Assembly: GCA_028867785.1 (NCBI GenBank) | Contig: JAGWFS010000004.1 | Span: 62,001 to 126,000 of the forward strand | Source: Nitrososphaerota archaeon | GTDB taxonomy: Archaea; Thermoproteota; Nitrososphaeria; Nitrososphaerales; Nitrosopumilaceae | Reading direction: 5' to 3' | Length of the DNA stretch: 64,000 bases | Part shown: positions 9,038 through 29,553 of the stretch, piece by piece | Numbering within the stretch: the first letter of the stretch is position 1 | How the letters are laid out: each line of letters starts with the position of its first letter | Translations under genes and position numbers: made by a program | The notes under the pieces: generated by a model | Seen by the model: the letters and a program-made list of their open reading frames with translations, nothing else | What the model was told of the DNA's origin: nothing | The model's database searches: none

Positions 9038-9634
9038 TTAGAATTCTATGCTTGAGAAACTTGGCTGGTCTTTGTTTTGATGAAACTGGATCTTTGATAC
9101 CTTGTAGTAAATTACTTCCCCCCTCCTCTCAATTACGGCAAGGACTGGCTCTTTTCCCATTGTGACAATCTGCTCTATCTGTTTTTGCAGTATGCCAATT
9201 TTTTGTCTTCTTCCTTCTGTGAGTCCAAATATGACATATTTTGCTCCTTTCTCCCCAAATTGGCCTCTTTCATAGACACGAAAATCAGAGCCAAATCCAA
9301 ATCCATCTTTTGCCACATATCCTCTGGTTCGCAAGTCTCGATAAATCAAGAACTTGGTAAAAGCCTCACTGTCCTGTTTGATGCATTCGTCCAGCAGATA
9401 ATCAAAAAGTACAGGCTGCTTGCCTTTGACTAGTTTTAGCTTGTCAACGTACAATAGATACAAGGACTCGAAGGGTTTGAGAAAAAATTTCTGTTTTATA
9501 GTTTCCCCAAACCCTTTTTGCTCCAGGCTGCGTTGCATGTTTTTATCTGAAATCAAGACATGATCTTTTACCAGTACTCCCTCTACCTTTGATTCCAATT
9601 CGGACATTAGGGGTTCGATATATCCGATCAACAT
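9038..9634 (-). CDS. endA: tRNA-splicing endonuclease subunit (EndA-like), catalytic His absent
   Basis: This 198-residue protein has the N-terminal domain and C-terminal nuclease fold of EndA, which cuts bulge-helix-bulge introns from archaeal tRNAs. Visible are YRDLRTRGYVAKDGFGFGSD, the catalytic-Tyr motif FRVYERG, and the Lys region GKEPVLAVIERRGEVIYYKV. The usual His in the motif that normally reads HAKY or HSKY is replaced; here it reads KGAKYVIF. Tyr and Lys are present. That is expected of a structural subunit in (alpha-beta)2 enzymes, or this may be a variant enzyme. A substrate, intron-containing tRNA-Ser, lies at 48799. Confidence 0.82.
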   Translation of the reverse strand: MLIGYIEPLMSELESKVEGVLVKDHVLISDKNMQRSLEQKGFGETIKQKFFLKPFESLYLLYVDKLKLVKGKQPVLFDYLLDECIKQDSEAFTKFLIYRDLRTRGYVAKDGFGFGSDFRVYERGQFGEKGAKYVIFGLTEGRRQKIGILQKQIEQIVTMGKEPVLAVIERRGEVIYYKVSKIQFHQNKDQPSFSSIEF

Positions 9635-9754
9635 ATAACATTACTCCATATTTTGTTTGAATGTACGTTTGCGGTCGCGTTTACGAATAATATAGAGAAT
9701 AAACGATCTTACGGTTAAAATATGGGCATAAAATAAGAATGAAAAAGTGTCATT

Positions 9755-10270
9755 ATGCACGGAGCAAACTATCGAACTGGCAATGGTCAGCCCTATACAA
9801 GAAAAGAATTCATCAAGGGCAAGCCTCAGATAAAAATAGCCAAGTTTTCAGGCGGAAAAAGAGATGGAGATTACGATTATTGCATTCAGCTATTATCTAA
9901 TGAAAAGGCTCAGGTAAGACACATGGCAATAGAGTCGGCCAGACTAGCTGCAAACAAATCCATAGAACAAGTTGCAGGAGAGACAGGATATTTCTCAAAC
10001 CTCAGAATATACCCGCATATCTTGCTCAGAGAAAACAAGATGATTGCAACTGCAGGTGCAGACAGACTTCAGGAAGGAATGAGAGGAGCTTTTGGCAAAG
10101 CCATCAGTTTGGCAGCACGTGTCGACAGAGGTCAGATACTCATGGAGGCATTTGTCAAAAAGGAGCACTTAGATGCAGCAAAGAAGGCCATGCATGGAGC
10201 TGCGGTAAAACTTCCAATAACACCTACAATCAAGGTAATTCCGTTAAAGCCAGCATCAGTCAAGGCTTAG
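9755..10270 (+). CDS. rpl10e: 50S ribosomal protein L10e (uL16)
   Basis: A 171-residue archaeal uL16/L10e protein of the large-subunit central region near the peptidyl-transferase site. Diagnostic stretches are MHGANYRTGNGQPYTRKEFI, the GADRLQEGMRGAFGKAIS loop and GETGYFSNLRIYPHILLREN. Full length. It stands as a single gene with AT-rich upstream sequence. Its last 15 bases overlap the convergent gene at 10256. Confidence 0.95.
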   Translation: MHGANYRTGNGQPYTRKEFIKGKPQIKIAKFSGGKRDGDYDYCIQLLSNEKAQVRHMAIESARLAANKSIEQVAGETGYFSNLRIYPHILLRENKMIATAGADRLQEGMRGAFGKAISLAARVDRGQILMEAFVKKEHLDAAKKAMHGAAVKLPITPTIKVIPLKPASVKA

Positions 10271-21816: not shown

Positions 21817-23220
21817 GTGAAGCAGGCAAAATCGCAGGAAGGCAAAAGATCGTCCAAGGATCCCACTGCAGAGACGCTCAAGAAGATGAATTCGATTTCA
21901 GAGGCAACCAAGGTTCTGGCCTCAGAAGTAAAGACAATGTCAAAGATTTTCACCGAGAATCAGAAAATACTGATCTCATTAAAAAACATGATAGACGGAG
22001 TAAACTCTTCACTAGACCAGATACAGAAAAACTCCAGACAGATGAACATACTTGAAGAGGATACCCAGAGGCTTTTCCACGGGATGAACCAGGTAAAGGC
22101 GCATTCCAACATCATAGAGAAGATCAATGAGCAGATAAATCGTTTACAAGATCAGGTCAGCAAGATCCATCAGAAACAGGCAGACATTCCTGATTCCGGT
22201 AAGCTCATGCAGAATGTGGCAGACAATCTCGATTCCATCAGAAACAACACAAAAATGATAATGCACATATCCGAAAAGACAGAAAAGATACGTGAGGACA
22301 TAAAGGCAGTATCAAGCAAGGCAGAATCATTAGCAAATATAGGTTCGGAAATTGAAGAGGTAAAGAAAAGCACAAAGGAATTTTCCGCAAAGGCAGAGTT
22401 ACTCTCAGGCCTGCATGTCGAGATAGACGAGGTAAAAAAGAGTACCAAAGCCATGATTGAAAAATCTGAAAAAATGTCTCACTTGGAAGAGAGCATATCA
22501 AACATCAAGACAGAGATTGGAAAAATTGTTGCAAAGACAGAGCCCATAATCGGTCTTGATTCTCAGATTAGAAATGTAGGAACAGAGATTGATTCGCTAG
22601 TAAAGAAGACAGAGTCTCTCGGTACGTTAGGCAGTGACATTAGAAATGTAAATTCCGAGTTTAGTAGCTTCAAGAACAACGTCCTAAGCAAGACAAAGGA
22701 GATAGAGGAAAAGATGTCGGACTTTGCGGAACTGCTCAACAGAAACTCTGCGTCAATATCTGAATTTAACAAGACCACTCATGAAATTTCCCAGCAACTA
22801 AACGACATAAGGAGCGTGACTCACAAGACTTCACAGAACACTTCAAGAGAGGTCATGGGATTGCTTCGCCTCTCAGAATTCCAGTCCAACATACGCATGA
22901 GATCAGAATCAAAATACGGCACGTTAGAAGACATAGAAAAAATGGTGTCACAGGCTGTTGACATGGTCAATCTATTTGACAGGCTTTCCATCGAGGCTGA
23001 GACAAAGATGTCCCTTCCCCTGGAGGTAAAACAATGGAGCATATCCAAGATCTTGGATTGTGCAGACAGGTGGGAAATCAGGTTCACTGATGTATTCAGA
23101 ATGCTAACAAGTGAGCTAGGAGCTGATCTTGTAAAGGAATCACTTAGAATGGAACAGGTCCGAGACCTGTTTGGAATCAGAGCTGTGGACGAAGTAAGGC
23201 ACGAACTGAATATTTCCTAG
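21817..23220 (+). CDS. long coiled-coil protein
   Basis: The 467-residue product starts at a GTG (MKQAKSQEGKRSSKDPTAET). Residues about 20-340 are near-continuous heptads with recurring units of the form IEEVKKSTK and SEKxxxL. The last 120 residues are globular and helical (YGTLEDIEKMVSQAVDMVNL, KQWSISKILDCADRWEIRFT). No transmembrane segment or ATPase motif is present. It could be a cytoskeletal, chromosome-organising or receptor-like scaffold; the family is not recognised. It is convergent with the glycosyltransferase gene, overlapping four bases. Confidence 0.65.
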   Translation: MKQAKSQEGKRSSKDPTAETLKKMNSISEATKVLASEVKTMSKIFTENQKILISLKNMIDGVNSSLDQIQKNSRQMNILEEDTQRLFHGMNQVKAHSNIIEKINEQINRLQDQVSKIHQKQADIPDSGKLMQNVADNLDSIRNNTKMIMHISEKTEKIREDIKAVSSKAESLANIGSEIEEVKKSTKEFSAKAELLSGLHVEIDEVKKSTKAMIEKSEKMSHLEESISNIKTEIGKIVAKTEPIIGLDSQIRNVGTEIDSLVKKTESLGTLGSDIRNVNSEFSSFKNNVLSKTKEIEEKMSDFAELLNRNSASISEFNKTTHEISQQLNDIRSVTHKTSQNTSREVMGLLRLSEFQSNIRMRSESKYGTLEDIEKMVSQAVDMVNLFDRLSIEAETKMSLPLEVKQWSISKILDCADRWEIRFTDVFRMLTSELGADLVKESLRMEQVRDLFGIRAVDEVRHELNIS

Positions 23221-25244
23221 TTATCTTCAACTTCGTAGGCTCGCAATCGCTCTCTTTTCCTCTTTAGCATTGCAAATATTCCAATTATTACGCCAACCCA
23301 TATGCAGCCAAACAGCATGTTCGATATGCTCACATACATGTATGGCGTGGCATCAAGCAGATTGAATACAATTGTGCTAGCTTGGTAGTGAACATTCAGC
23401 ATTCCAGTATGAAACGCTGCGCTGTCAGGAGATGTAGTTGCAATCTTATCAGTGGTTGCAAGCATTGTAGTCAGATCACCTTGCATTAGTCCAAAGTCAG
23501 TGTCGTCTGTTGGGAATATCCATACAGGGTTTCCAGATGGCGGAAGTAATGTTTTTACAGCCTTTAGATCATTGTGGATGGATTGTGGATCAGATGTGGC
23601 CTGAATTCTTAACAGCAGACCCCTAGCTTGGTCAAGCGGGTATATTGTTGTACTATATTCTTCAAAGGCCATAACTACTCCCAAGAGTATGAGTCCCATG
23701 ATTCCGCCCATTGCAAACTTGTAGTATGTATTTGCCATTCTTTGATTACCTGATGTAACAGGCATATTTCTTGATTTGCCTTTTTTAAATGTTGAATGAG
23801 ATATGCTAAGATATGCTATATAGAAGAATCCTATAGTTTGGATTCCAATTATTGGAGCAAAGATAGGATTTTCTGAAAAGATTGCAATGAATATACCTAT
23901 GATTCCATATACTCCAAAGAATAGCTCAAGCAATGTGGTTTTTGTGAAAGGCAGCGCATAGGCCTTGTCTCTCCAATCGTCACTCTTTTTTATTATTCCA
24001 AACTTTGGAGTGCGCAGAAATTCATTTTTCTTTCCAAATAATGCGTCAAATACGGCTACAGTGTTATTCACAGACATACCTGCAGAATAAAACACCATGT
24101 AAAAGTATGACAGCGCTTTAGACTTCCAGCTTGTGTTATACAGATCTCGAATTATCATAATGTACACCAATGGCCCCATGGCAAGATATGCCAGTATCGT
24201 GAGAGCTGGCAGGCCACTTACTATATAGAGGTTGATTTTTGTAGCCAGCAATACTGGTAAAATTAAGAATTGCATCAGCATTAGCGGAAATGCAATATGC
24301 CTTGTGAGTTGAACAAAAGCCTGGATTTTTGTGTCAACCGGTATTTTCTTTATCACTACATCTCCAAGTAATTTTATGGCACACTGGATAGACCCCTTTG
24401 CCCACCTGAACTGCTGTCTCTTTGCAGCATTCATCTGTACAGGAAGTTCTGCATCTACCACTATATCTGGTATAAATACACATTTCCATCCTTTCATCTG
24501 TGCTCTATAGCTAAGGTCTAGATCCTCCACCAACGTTGCAGTATGCCACCCCCCAGCATCTTCAATGCAGTCCCTTCTCCAGACCCCAGCAGTACCGTTG
24601 AAATTCATGAACAGGTGGGAATTACTTTTTGCTTGTTGTTCTATCAGAAAATGAAAGTCCAAGCTTAGTGCCTGGGCCATGGTCAATGCAGAATATTTTT
24701 CATTTACATGACCCCACCTGCATTGTACCAGACCTATCTCAGGCTTGCAAAAATATGAGAGCGCTTTTTTTAGGAACCATGATGGAGGAATAAAGTCTGC
24801 GTCAAATATGGCAACAAAGTCTCCCTTTGCAAAACTCATTGCATGACGAAGCGCCCCTGCCTTGTACCCTTTTCTATTTCCCCGCCTTACATGCATTATG
24901 TCAAATCCTTTCTTTTTGTAATCATTTACCAGATCTTCCAGTATAGTGAATGTGTCATCATCAGAGTCATCCAGTACCTGGATGCATAGTTTCTCTTTTG
25001 GATAGTCTTGTGCACATACCGCGTTCACAAGTCTGGCAGCCACATACTTTTCATTGTAAATTGGAAGCTGGATTGTAACGGTGGGAATCTCTTTTAGTTC
25101 AACAGATTTTGTCTTCTTTTTTTGTCTGGCCAGAAAGACAAGATAGTAAAAATTGCACGTATACAGAGTTATGACAAGGGCTATTCCGATAAAGAGATTC
25201 CACAAGAATTGGGTTAAAGGCGTTGGTACAGGATGTATCAGCAT
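23217..25244 (-). CDS. family-2 glycosyltransferase, cellulose-synthase-like membrane protein
   Basis: The 675-residue protein has a transmembrane helix at the N-terminus, a GT-A domain with the processive-enzyme signature (DDSDD, FDADF, a third Asp in TLVEDLDLSYR, and QQFRWAKG), then about six transmembrane helices. A long extracytoplasmic loop lies before the last helix. Such enzymes polymerise and export beta-linked polysaccharides from nucleotide sugars; the exact glycan is unknown. No polysaccharide cluster surrounds it, so a housekeeping surface glycan is possible. Confidence 0.9.
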   Translation of the reverse strand: MLIHPVPTPLTQFLWNLFIGIALVITLYTCNFYYLVFLARQKKKTKSVELKEIPTVTIQLPIYNEKYVAARLVNAVCAQDYPKEKLCIQVLDDSDDDTFTILEDLVNDYKKKGFDIMHVRRGNRKGYKAGALRHAMSFAKGDFVAIFDADFIPPSWFLKKALSYFCKPEIGLVQCRWGHVNEKYSALTMAQALSLDFHFLIEQQAKSNSHLFMNFNGTAGVWRRDCIEDAGGWHTATLVEDLDLSYRAQMKGWKCVFIPDIVVDAELPVQMNAAKRQQFRWAKGSIQCAIKLLGDVVIKKIPVDTKIQAFVQLTRHIAFPLMLMQFLILPVLLATKINLYIVSGLPALTILAYLAMGPLVYIMIIRDLYNTSWKSKALSYFYMVFYSAGMSVNNTVAVFDALFGKKNEFLRTPKFGIIKKSDDWRDKAYALPFTKTTLLELFFGVYGIIGIFIAIFSENPIFAPIIGIQTIGFFYIAYLSISHSTFKKGKSRNMPVTSGNQRMANTYYKFAMGGIMGLILLGVVMAFEEYSTTIYPLDQARGLLLRIQATSDPQSIHNDLKAVKTLLPPSGNPVWIFPTDDTDFGLMQGDLTTMLATTDKIATTSPDSAAFHTGMLNVHYQASTIVFNLLDATPYMYVSISNMLFGCIWVGVIIGIFAMLKRKRERLRAYEVEDN

Positions 25245-25293: not shown

Positions 25294-26250
25294 CTAGCCT
25301 CTCTTTGAGATCTTGATTGCTTGCACAGGGCAAACATTCTCACATGATAAGCAGAATATACAGTCAATCTCTCTTGCCATAAGGGGTTTTTTCTCAGATG
25401 AAGGGTTTCCTGCAAACTCGGCCCATTCATAGACCTTGACAGGACAGGCATCTATGCAGGCACCGTCTCCCACACATATATCAAAGTCAACTGAGACAAA
25501 TTCTCCCCAGATTCCCAATACTTCGTTTCCTTTTCTTGGTCCATAGACCTTTATCTTGCCGCCACTGGATGGGGCGGTGAATGTTTCTGATACCTTTAGT
25601 TTTTTCTTAAATTCTACATCTATTGGCCCCGGTTTTGCTCCAGATGGAGTCTCTATCTCTGCGGGTTGTTGTGCCTCCTGTCCAGGCGGAGGAGATGCCG
25701 GTTTTGGTTTGGGCTTGGCATTTAGAACTATCTGTGCAAGCGGTGTCATCTCTTCCAGTTCTTTTAAAGCTGCTTCCGGAGTTGCTTGTTTGGTTTTTAC
25801 AAGATGTTCAATCATCTTGTCGGCAAGAACACTGTTACGCAGTATAGTATCAATCATCATCTTGGCATTTGCATCTGCTTTTCTCCTGTAGTCTTTTACC
25901 CAGAGGCCGTCGCCATATTTCTCTACTGGGTAAATTTGGTATATCATATCAACTACCTCTCCGGTTACAACTTCAACTTGTACCTCAAGCTCAATCTGCT
26001 TGTATCCTCTGTCATCAGGATCAGGTGTACTCTCTTCTTTCCATCGGTATGTCGCATAAACCCTGTCAGCAAATTGATCCATGACAAAAACTTTCTTGAA
26101 TCCACTAACAATAGAATCAATTTCGTACTTGTCTTCCAGTTTTACTGGCAGGCGATAAAGTCCCAGCTTGTAGCTGTGCAATGGATATATTCCTCTCTTC
26201 GAAGTCCCAGACTGGACTGTGTAGACCTTGTCTTTTAGAAGAAGGGACAT
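25294..26250 (-). CDS. ferredoxin-domain fusion protein (3Fe-4S/4Fe-4S type)
   Basis: The 318-residue protein has an unknown N-terminal domain (about 1-170), a Pro/Lys/Ala-rich linker (AKPKPKPASPPPGQEAQQPA) and a C-terminal ferredoxin of the archaeal zinc-ferredoxin type. Its first cluster motif CVGDGACIDACPV has Asp in place of the second Cys, typical of a 3Fe-4S or labile 4Fe-4S site. The second, CIFCLSCENVCPV, is a full 4Fe-4S site. The zinc-binding His of Sulfolobus-type zinc ferredoxin (before VYGP and in GIHG) are not seen here; the equivalents read GGKIKVYGP and GIWG. Electron carrier role is likely; the N-domain is unexplained. Confidence 0.8.
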   Translation of the reverse strand: MSLLLKDKVYTVQSGTSKRGIYPLHSYKLGLYRLPVKLEDKYEIDSIVSGFKKVFVMDQFADRVYATYRWKEESTPDPDDRGYKQIELEVQVEVVTGEVVDMIYQIYPVEKYGDGLWVKDYRRKADANAKMMIDTILRNSVLADKMIEHLVKTKQATPEAALKELEEMTPLAQIVLNAKPKPKPASPPPGQEAQQPAEIETPSGAKPGPIDVEFKKKLKVSETFTAPSSGGKIKVYGPRKGNEVLGIWGEFVSVDFDICVGDGACIDACPVKVYEWAEFAGNPSSEKKPLMAREIDCIFCLSCENVCPVQAIKISKRG

Positions 26251-26286: not shown

Positions 26287-26616
26287 TTAGTAATCTGGGC
26301 ACGTCTCTTCACGGATCTTTCGATATCTTTCTTCCATCTCTTTAGCATGCACCAGTACATTTTCAAGAGTGTACTTGTCTTTAGGAAAGAACCACCGTAT
26401 TCCTACTTTATGGCCAATTCCGTCCATGTCGTAGATCATGCCTTTTTCCGAGTCTACATTGTATTTTTCATCAATTGATCGCTCTTGTACTGTAAGACCT
26501 CTCTTGGTTTTGTCTTCCATGATTAGATCAATCGGTCCATCTCTTATTGCATAAAATATTCCCTTTTGCAATACAGGAAGTTCTCGGCCTTCGTTATTTT
26601 TCAATCGGGTTTCCAA
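26287..26616 (-). CDS. hypothetical protein downstream of rhodanese
   Basis: One hundred and nine residues starting METRLKNNEGRELPVLQKGI. Mixed alpha/beta, with a Trp/Phe/Lys-rich RWFFPKDKYTLENVLVHAKE segment. It overlaps the end of the sulfurtransferase by 23 bases on the same strand, so translation is probably coupled and a shared sulfur-related role is reasonable. No family recognised. Confidence 0.6.
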   Translation of the reverse strand: METRLKNNEGRELPVLQKGIFYAIRDGPIDLIMEDKTKRGLTVQERSIDEKYNVDSEKGMIYDMDGIGHKVGIRWFFPKDKYTLENVLVHAKEMEERYRKIREETCPDY

Positions 26617-27439
26617 TCATATTACCCCATTCAGTCCAGGAGCCATCATAGTTTCTAACTTGCGGATATCCTAACAAGTATTTCAGGACAAACCAGCTGT
26701 GGGAAGATCTTTCCCCTATCCTACAATAACAGATTACATCTTTATCTGGCGTGACTCCTTTAGTCTCGTAATTCTTCTTTAGTTCCTCAACAGTTTTGAA
26801 GGTGCCGTCAGTGTCATTTATAGCCGTTGCCCACGGTATGTTATTTGCACCAGGAATATGCCCACCTCTTTGCGCATGTTCCATTGGATATTCCGGAGGA
26901 GCAGTGATTTCGCCTGAGAATTCCTTGGGAGAACGCACGTCAACTAGGACGGTATCTTTTTTGTCAAGAGATCTTCTCACATCAAACAGATAAGCTCGTA
27001 TTCCTTCGTTTGGGGGTTGTGACACATACTTTGTCTTTTGAATCTGTGGCTCTTCCTTTGTGTATGGTCTTTTCTCCATTTCCCATTTCTTTCTTCCCCC
27101 ATTCATGATCTTTATTTTTTCATGTCCATAGTACTTGAATATCCAAAATACAAAGGCGGCAAACCAGTTGTTGAAATCTCCGTAAAGAACCACCTCAGAA
27201 TCAGCGGTGATTCCATTTCTGGACATTAGGTCTTCAAATTGTGATTTGCTGACAATATCCCGTGTTACTGGATCGTTGATGTCTCTTTTCCACCAGATAA
27301 GACTGGCATTTTGAATGTGCCCTTGTCTGTAAGCATTTTCCGGATCATAATCGACCTCGACAAGCTTGATTGTATTATTTCCCATATTTTTTGCAACAGT
27401 CTCAGTATCGGTTAGAACTTCAGGATGCACGTAATTCAT
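26594..27439 (-). CDS. thiosulfate sulfurtransferase (tandem rhodanese)
   Basis: The 281-residue protein carries two rhodanese domains. The N-terminal one lacks an active Cys (VVLYGDFNNWFA region). The C-terminal one has the active loop CYCRIGERS with Cys239 and the upstream VDVRSPKEFSGE and GHIPGANNIPW motifs. It transfers sulfane sulfur to cyanide or thiol acceptors. Gene order with 26287 and the ferredoxin fusion suggests a small redox/sulfur operon. ATG start at 27439. Confidence 0.9.
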   Translation of the reverse strand: MNYVHPEVLTDTETVAKNMGNNTIKLVEVDYDPENAYRQGHIQNASLIWWKRDINDPVTRDIVSKSQFEDLMSRNGITADSEVVLYGDFNNWFAAFVFWIFKYYGHEKIKIMNGGRKKWEMEKRPYTKEEPQIQKTKYVSQPPNEGIRAYLFDVRRSLDKKDTVLVDVRSPKEFSGEITAPPEYPMEHAQRGGHIPGANNIPWATAINDTDGTFKTVEELKKNYETKGVTPDKDVICYCRIGERSSHSWFVLKYLLGYPQVRNYDGSWTEWGNMIGNPIEK

Positions 27440-28341: not shown

Positions 28342-28834
28342 GATTTTGGATTCCACCTCGTTTTATGCAGGCATACCATTCTCATCACAAGATGTTAGCT
28401 ATACCACTCCTCTAGTTTTTGAAGAGATCAAGCATATCAAAAAAGATCAAGGTGCAATAGATGTGTTAATAGAATCAGACAGACTGAAAATTATAGAACC
28501 TGAAAAAAAGTTTGTAGACATCACACTTGGAAAAGCAGAGGAAACAGGGGACTACCAGAGCCTTTCCAAGGAGGACGTTTCTGTCATAGCATTATGTTTA
28601 CAGACTGGCGGAGAGTTGGTAACCGATGACTTTGCAGTTTCAAATGTGGCAAAGCACATGAATTTGAAAGTTTTGCCAGTCATGACAAAGGGGGCAGACA
28701 AGATAAAATGGATTTATTTTTGCGCAGGCTGTAGAACAAGTTTTTCCAAAGATTCTATTTGTCCAATGTGCGGAAACAAGCTGGTACGCAAGTCATCCAA
28801 GAGCAAGTCCTCTTCCGACCCAGTCGGCCAGTGA
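28331..28834 (+). CDS. nob1: rRNA endonuclease Nob1
   Basis: The 167-residue protein joins a PIN nuclease domain (LDSTSFYAG near the start, catalytic acidic residues in SKEDVSVIALCLQ and VTDDFAVSNVA) to a zinc ribbon (CAGC and CPMCG). It cleaves the 3' end of 16S rRNA during 30S maturation. The TTG start at 28331 overlaps the nadK stop; TTG 28346 is an alternative. The tail is Ser/Lys-rich. Its end overlaps the convergent rhodanese pseudogene by 42 bases. Confidence 0.88.
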   Translation: MVFRILDSTSFYAGIPFSSQDVSYTTPLVFEEIKHIKKDQGAIDVLIESDRLKIIEPEKKFVDITLGKAEETGDYQSLSKEDVSVIALCLQTGGELVTDDFAVSNVAKHMNLKVLPVMTKGADKIKWIYFCAGCRTSFSKDSICPMCGNKLVRKSSKSKSSSDPVGQ

Positions 28835-29553
28835 GCCATCATACAGTCTCACATTTTCATATCCTGCAATTCTAAGCTGGACAAATACATTTGCCGCCCT
28901 ATGACCCAGGGTACAATAACACACTAGTTCTTTGTCTTTTGGAATTTTTTGCTCCTCAAAGATAGATACAAGCTCATCTTTTTCCTTGAAAAGAGAGCCA
29001 TGCTCACCTACTCCGTCTGTGAATGGAAAGAGAATAGAGTTCGGTATCCTGCCAGCGATGTACTCCTGAGGGGATCGGGCATCCAAGATAAAAGCAGACT
29101 CGAGATTCTTTTGCAGTTCTTTGGCCTCTATTCTTATTGACGAGTTTATTTTTGGTGCAAAAGTAGCAGGAGTTGTCTTGTGAACCTCCCTTGTGATTGG
29201 GAGTCCTTTTTGATGCCAACTTGTGATTCCAGTGTCTAGGATCTTTGTTTTTCATGTCCAAAGTACAAAAACGTCCAAGCTATTCGGGCGGCAGACGGGT
29301 CCATATAGTCACCACATATCACAACGGTTTTTGTGTCATCAATTCCAAGCGACCCAAACAAGGCTACGGCGTTTTCAGTCTCCAATACAGGATTTGCGCC
29401 AGTATCAGCAGCCTCGACTACTACCTTTTCCACCTCCAGAGGTTGAGACTTGGGGATGTGTCCATATGAATATGCCACATTTCCTCTTGAATCCAGCATT
29501 ACCAAATCTGGATCATCGTAATGCCCTGCCAGCCAAGAATGTGAAATTATCAT
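28793..29553 (-). pseudogene. frameshifted tandem rhodanese (thiosulfate sulfurtransferase)
   Basis: One frame reads MIISHSWLAGHYDDPDLVML to WTFLYFGHE. Another continues TKILDTGITSWHQKGLPITR through LDARSPQEYIAGRIP to the active loop CYCTLGHRA, then DWVGRGLALG. The break is at a T5 homopolymer (29248-29252); one more base restores a full-length two-domain sulfurtransferase of about 253 residues. It could be a true pseudogene or a homopolymer sequencing error. A second, intact rhodanese lies at 26594. Confidence 0.8.

Follow-up and report, generated by a model that had tools for sequence, protein, structure and literature searches.

A probable iron-sulfur electron carrier of AOA: a zinc-ferredoxin-type module with replaced zinc ligands, joined to a domain of no recognised fold

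A gene on contig JAGWFS010000004.1 of a Nitrososphaerota archaeon encodes what is probably, judging from its sequence, an iron-sulfur electron carrier of ammonia-oxidizing archaea (AOA), which a low-complexity linker connects to a domain of no recognised fold. The protein, called FdN here, is 318 aa long and is encoded at 25294..26250 on the minus strand of the window, the whole stretch of 64,000 nucleotides that was analysed; it was delimited by its open reading frame, by phmmer and by a profile of its N-terminal domain. This N-domain (residues 1-173; 25732..26250, minus strand), found only in AOA families in the samples searched, is followed by a linker and lead-in set by alignment of orthologues (residues 174-232; 25555..25731, minus strand) and by a zinc-less dicluster ferredoxin module (residues 233-316; 25303..25554, minus strand). 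The reading favoured here, with somewhat better than even confidence, is that FdN serves as a tethered low-potential electron carrier of AOA, composed of a redox-active head, a linker and a partner-docking N-domain, with a hydrophobic core in place of zinc.

The best solved relatives of the module are the zinc-ferredoxins of Sulfolobales, a class characterised by one zinc per molecule alongside [3Fe-4S] and [4Fe-4S] clusters. Residues 233-314 align to 1xer (E 3.2e-27) and 2vkr (E 1.9e-26) in a phmmer search of the PDB, without a gap over 82 residues, and FdN shares with these proteins part of the N-terminal extension, both cluster sites and the Asp in cluster I. Cluster I is intact as C259-x2-D262-x2-C265-x3-C269-P (motif CxxDxxCxxxC, residues 259-269; 25444..25476, minus strand by alignment), as is cluster II as C297-x2-C300-x2-C303-x3-C307-P (motif CxxCxxCxxxC, residues 297-307; 25330..25362, minus strand by alignment). 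The Asp replaces the second Cys of cluster I, which reads CVGDGAC in the window and CxxDGxC in the complete sequences among those listed. The best NCBIfam match of FdN is NF041165 (ZFX_Thplmales; E 6.3e-17), with a score of 62.2 bits that is far below the family cut-off of 280 bits. The initial annotation had recognised a zinc-ferredoxin layout with an Asp-substituted first cluster at the C-terminus, and the alignment to the solved structures agrees.

What sets FdN apart from the Sulfolobales zinc-ferredoxins is that all four zinc ligands are replaced, and that the 173-residue N-domain and the linker stand in front of the module. In 1xer, zinc is bound by His16, His19, His34 and Asp76 (PMC2946596). 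Alignment puts F224 (25579..25581), I233 (25552..25554), W248 (25507..25509) and L290 (25381..25383), all on the minus strand, at these four places in turn; the equivalence of F224 and His16 is less certain, because it depends on the alignment across an insertion. The initial annotation had noted that the zinc-binding His residues are missing, which is borne out at the first three positions, and the Asp ligand is gone as well. Because the equivalent ligands surround a single buried zinc in the Sulfolobus structure, the four replacing residues probably pack together. They would then make up a small hydrophobic core tying the N-terminal extension to the body of the ferredoxin without a metal, by analogy with the zinc-lacking Sulfolobales isoforms. 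Zinc loss with a hydrophobic core has a precedent in principle, since it is reported from such isoforms: those of Sulfolobus metallicus and Acidianus ambivalens (FdB) have enhanced thermal stability without a zinc site, according to PMC2946596, which also cites a paper whose title describes a hydrophobic core replacing a metal site. The four positions of FdN are hydrophobic, and its residues there might form a core like that described for FdB; no N-domain or tether is mentioned for the isoforms in the accessible portions of the source.

The N-terminal part of FdN has no such relatives. Residues 1-173 have no Pfam match at E up to 1 and none among the NCBIfam matches listed (25 of 73), and score only weakly against PHROG (best E 0.072). 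A profile of the domain found nothing better than E 0.22 among PDB sequences; the weak scores of 1jop (E 0.22) and 8v2b (E 0.46) were judged to be chance. A scan of viral contigs for relatives of the domain returned 61 pattern matches, of which none was confirmed. AlphaFold, given the FdN of the window and 29 orthologues that are 82-96% identical, produced models with a mean pLDDT of 43.7 for full FdN and 32.8 for the N-domain alone, too poor for a fold search. The initial annotation had left about 170 N-terminal residues unassigned, as they stay after these searches, and had described the linker as Pro-rich. The linker is indeed rich in P, A, Q and K, and its low-complexity first part spans 35 aa in the window, compared with 33-74 aa among 41 measured orthologues. 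Two genomes carry the domain more than once: in G249 it is duplicated nearby, with two FdN genes about 4 kb apart (L133:5051-6004 and 9309-10265), and G240 likewise has two N-domain matches.

The N-domain is strongly conserved, with 33 invariant residues in an alignment of 56 rows, among them K18, H25, R33, D62, R63, W70, E93, D101, W117, Y121, R122 and D134. A mere tether would hardly seem to require so many, which suggests an alternative in which the N-domain is an enzyme in its own right and the attached ferredoxin supplies or accepts its electrons. Such an arrangement is considered unlikely, given that no similarity to an enzyme family emerged from the Pfam, PHROG and PDB profile searches or from the NCBIfam matches listed, and that the predicted models are too poor to suggest a fold. 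The same alignment bears on the idea that FdN still binds zinc through ligands located elsewhere in the protein. The invariant His, H25, and the invariant acidic residues could contribute to such a site, but H25 is the only invariant His and 53 of the 56 rows contain no Cys, and a moved site would not require the old ligand positions to be hydrophobic, as they are across the two families described below as f1 and f8. A relocated zinc site is therefore very improbable.

In the tethered carrier that is preferred here, the ferredoxin module would remain redox-active, as its cluster motifs suggest, the N-domain would dock the carrier to one putative AOA partner, and the linker would let the ferredoxin head swing between an electron donor and the docked partner. 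By homology, the first candidate for the donor is the (alpha-beta)2 2-oxoacid:ferredoxin oxidoreductase (OFOR), which is described as reducing zinc-ferredoxin (PMC2946596) and as present in all extant AOA (PMC7554672). Counting against the tethered carrier, AOA genomes encode further zinc-ferredoxin-like paralogues besides FdN, and these rather than FdN could be the main carriers for OFOR. The genome of the window itself has a tandem pair of paralogues of this kind, with longer loops, at L078:5106-6130.

FdN is found well beyond the window. The genome of the window belongs to the genus of Ca. Nitrosotalea devanaterra, as the match in LN890280.1 (L055) shares its coordinates with the match in G035, a genome listed under the window's own genus. 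At E 1e-20 it is matched in 227 of 250 genomes of the window's family, and in 129 of the 131 good ones, some of the matches being fragments, and it is thus not a Nitrosotalea oddity. At a loose threshold of E 0.001, 59 of 61 relatives match FdN, a count that includes ferredoxin paralogues. The N-domain profile matches 274 of 400 genomes of the order, and AmoA (PF12942) is matched in 264; among the matches listed, both are confined to the families f1, f2, f3 and f8. Both occur together in 237 genomes, the N-domain alone in 37, AmoA alone in 27 and neither in 99, such that the agreement of the N-domain with AmoA is strict by family and loose by genome. The 27 genomes with AmoA alone comprise 15 of f1, one of f3 (G054) and 11 of f8. 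Gaps in metagenome-assembled genomes may conceal real absences of FdN: seven of the 27 (G189, G267, G344, G354, G362, G370 and G380) are listed at a completeness of at least 90%, and FdN is therefore called widespread rather than universal in AOA. In a phylum-wide sample of 300 genomes, the N-domain is present in 50, all of f1, f2 or f8; a further match in G595, at E 0.002 and with three in-frame stops, was taken as chance. From AmoA, 16S G+C and tree position, f2 is probably Nitrosocaldales, f3 Nitrosomirales and f8 Nitrososphaeraceae.

The state of the zinc site differs among these families. The ligand positions were read in 76 rows, 1xer included. The canonical ligands (HHHD) are present in six of seven f2 modules and in the one f3 module, or seven of eight sequences for the two families together; the seventh f2 module, from G292, has SYHA. 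All five standalone zinc-ferredoxins from non-AOA genomes of the order (L080, L082-L085) have HHHD as well; these are the same module in proteins of 104-117 aa that have no N-domain. In f1 and f8, all 62 modules have a hydrophobic replacement, mostly F/Y-I-W-L/F and always with W at the third position, with H at the first position in two and one sequence truncated. Among the 24 rows of f1, the third and fourth positions are invariably W and L, the second is I in 22 and otherwise L or V, and the first, which is aligned across the insertion and is the least certain column, shows F or Y in 22 rows but H in the other two. The 24 FdN rows of f8 have F or Y, I, W and then F, with I in one and one sequence truncated. 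The four positions thus change in a coordinated manner, with G292 as the sole intermediate row. The initial annotation was right that a zinc-less fusion exists, although its picture was incomplete: the fusion is widespread in AOA, and some families retain the canonical ligands.

Because the same fusion occurs in some AOA families with canonical ligands, the zinc site was lost within the FdN family. A tree of the N-domain separates f1 (support 100/99), f8 (96/94) and f2 with f3 (100/98), the last being the same pairing as in PMC10811736, where Nitrosomirales are described as the sister of Nitrosocaldales. In a tree of the module, the zinc-less rows of f1 and f8 lie on one side of a branch with support of 100/99; the branch retains 85/82, and appears in 78% of bootstrap trees, when the ligand columns and the whole extension are dropped to leave 67 columns. 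The standalone non-AOA zinc-ferredoxins fall outside the AOA fusions (83/83), and the trees place the AOA zinc loss inside those fusions. The simplest reading is probably a single loss on the way to the common ancestor of f1 and f8, and the broken site in G292 (L140:4748-5686) is possibly a separate and independent decay. Four f2 genomes with HHHD have a 16S G+C content of 59.9-61.2%; the value is 57.5% in the f3 genome G038, 52.6-54.6% in six f1 genomes and 53.8-58.2% in eight f8 genomes; G292, at 54.5%, is the lowest of the five f2 genomes measured. The values for f3 and f8 overlap, and temperature alone may or may not explain why the site was lost. Compared with the Sulfolobales precedent, the lineage and the fusion differ, as does the occurrence of both zinc states within a single family; the AOA-specific tether is the new element.

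The DnaJ-Fer proteins of Thaumarchaeota (PMC3564930) are a known case in AOA of a ferredoxin domain combined with a different one. As described there, DnaJ-Fer has a J domain and a ferredoxin with CXXCXXC or CXXFXXC, and FdN differs, with no J-domain match in Pfam at E up to 1. In the literature searched, in which subscription journals are thinly covered and some sources are represented only in part, neither the FdN fusion nor a loss of zinc from AOA ferredoxins is mentioned.

The genes around FdN suggest a further alternative. Upstream in the same gene run are a two-domain rhodanese (PF00581; 26594..27439, minus strand, by Pfam and NCBIfam) and a small protein, U109 (26287..26616, minus strand, from its reading frame and the phylum-sample search), whose longest open reading frame overlaps the rhodanese gene by 23 bases. 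Downstream is a family 2 glycosyltransferase (23217..25244, minus strand, by Pfam), which also lies next to FdN in f1 stretches, in five of six f2 stretches, in the f3 stretch and in two f8 stretches examined. The initial annotation had placed FdN beside a pair of rhodaneses. The one at 26594-27439 is intact, while the second, at 28793-29553, occupies two different frames in the window; it is a single open frame in L065 (2693-3451), and is either a decayed gene or an assembly error. Most f1 stretches examined have the order rhodanese, U109, FdN and glycosyltransferase, flanked on the other side by genes for NAD kinase and a NOB1-like PIN protein, an order that is preserved in part in the f2, f3 and f8 stretches examined. 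U109 ends in a C-terminal TCPD motif and has no match in the PDB.

FdN might accordingly act on sulfane sulfur together with its neighbours, the rhodanese and U109, for instance by reductively releasing sulfide from a persulfide. Rhodanese, U109 and FdN are close together on one strand, their order recurs in most f1 and f8 stretches and in the sole f3 stretch examined, and U109 is near FdN in six f2 stretches. U109 also shares the family range of the N-domain, being found in 46 of the 50 AOA genomes of the phylum sample and in none of the other 250. Against this, G112, G156, G268 and G279 have the N-domain and no match to U109 in the phylum-sample search, and their best rhodaneses are only 31, 34, 52 and 60% identical; in other genomes of f1, f3 and f8, the rhodanese next to FdN reaches 71-80%. 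L132 has neither a rhodanese nor U109 between the NAD kinase and FdN, the best rhodanese of five f2 genomes (61-63%) is located elsewhere in the genome, and close rhodaneses occur in non-AOA genomes too (G041, 67%; G049, 61%). FdN is separable from U109 and a close rhodanese, because it stays where both tend to go missing together. A role in sulfur chemistry is thus distinctly unlikely, and the hint of sulfur redox chemistry in the initial annotation is weak: the gene order does recur in relatives, but the N-domain persists without these partners.

The genomes of f8 contain a second gene, of 202-228 aa in the sequences listed, that has the FdN-type module behind a different N-terminus (L077:4968-5621; also L185-L198). 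In its 14 rows, the ligand positions are of the same hydrophobic type as in f8 FdN. The N-terminus contains CxxC...HxxxxC, which may be read as a C2HC zinc finger, and a Pfam scan of two of the proteins matched no zinc finger. Such an N-terminus, together with the fusion of FdN to an unrecognised domain, would suit a regulator in which the module no longer carries electrons and is instead a sensor of redox state, oxygen or NO, or a scaffold. This is improbable, slightly more so than the sulfur chemistry, as the cluster ligands are preserved in the complete sequences among those listed and no DNA-binding family is among the Pfam matches.

Within each of 14 genomes, the module DNA of the two f8 genes is 81-100% identical, whereas either kind averages 76% across genomes. 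In 13 of 14 pairs this within-genome value is higher than that to the closest module of the same kind from another genome, the exception being G340 (0.81 compared with 0.84), and the two genes of five genomes agree at every fourfold-degenerate site compared. By eye, most pairs lose this identity no more than about 40 bases before the module. The f8 module pair is under concerted evolution, most simply explained by gene conversion; repeated re-duplication onto the old N-terminus would give the same pattern.

A broader form of the tethered-carrier reading, which is unlikely as a whole, would make FdN a dedicated carrier of AOA-specific redox metabolism, in which a standard head must fit one partner. 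The probable Nitrososphaeraceae would then have two different tethers for the same head, whose copies gene conversion would keep alike within a genome, and the exchange of zinc for hydrophobic residues would be a shared zinc-sparing step towards mesophilic AOA. In short, a structural metal site has given way to what is probably a hydrophobic core, a single protein family shows both states, and a near-identical redox module follows two different N-termini.
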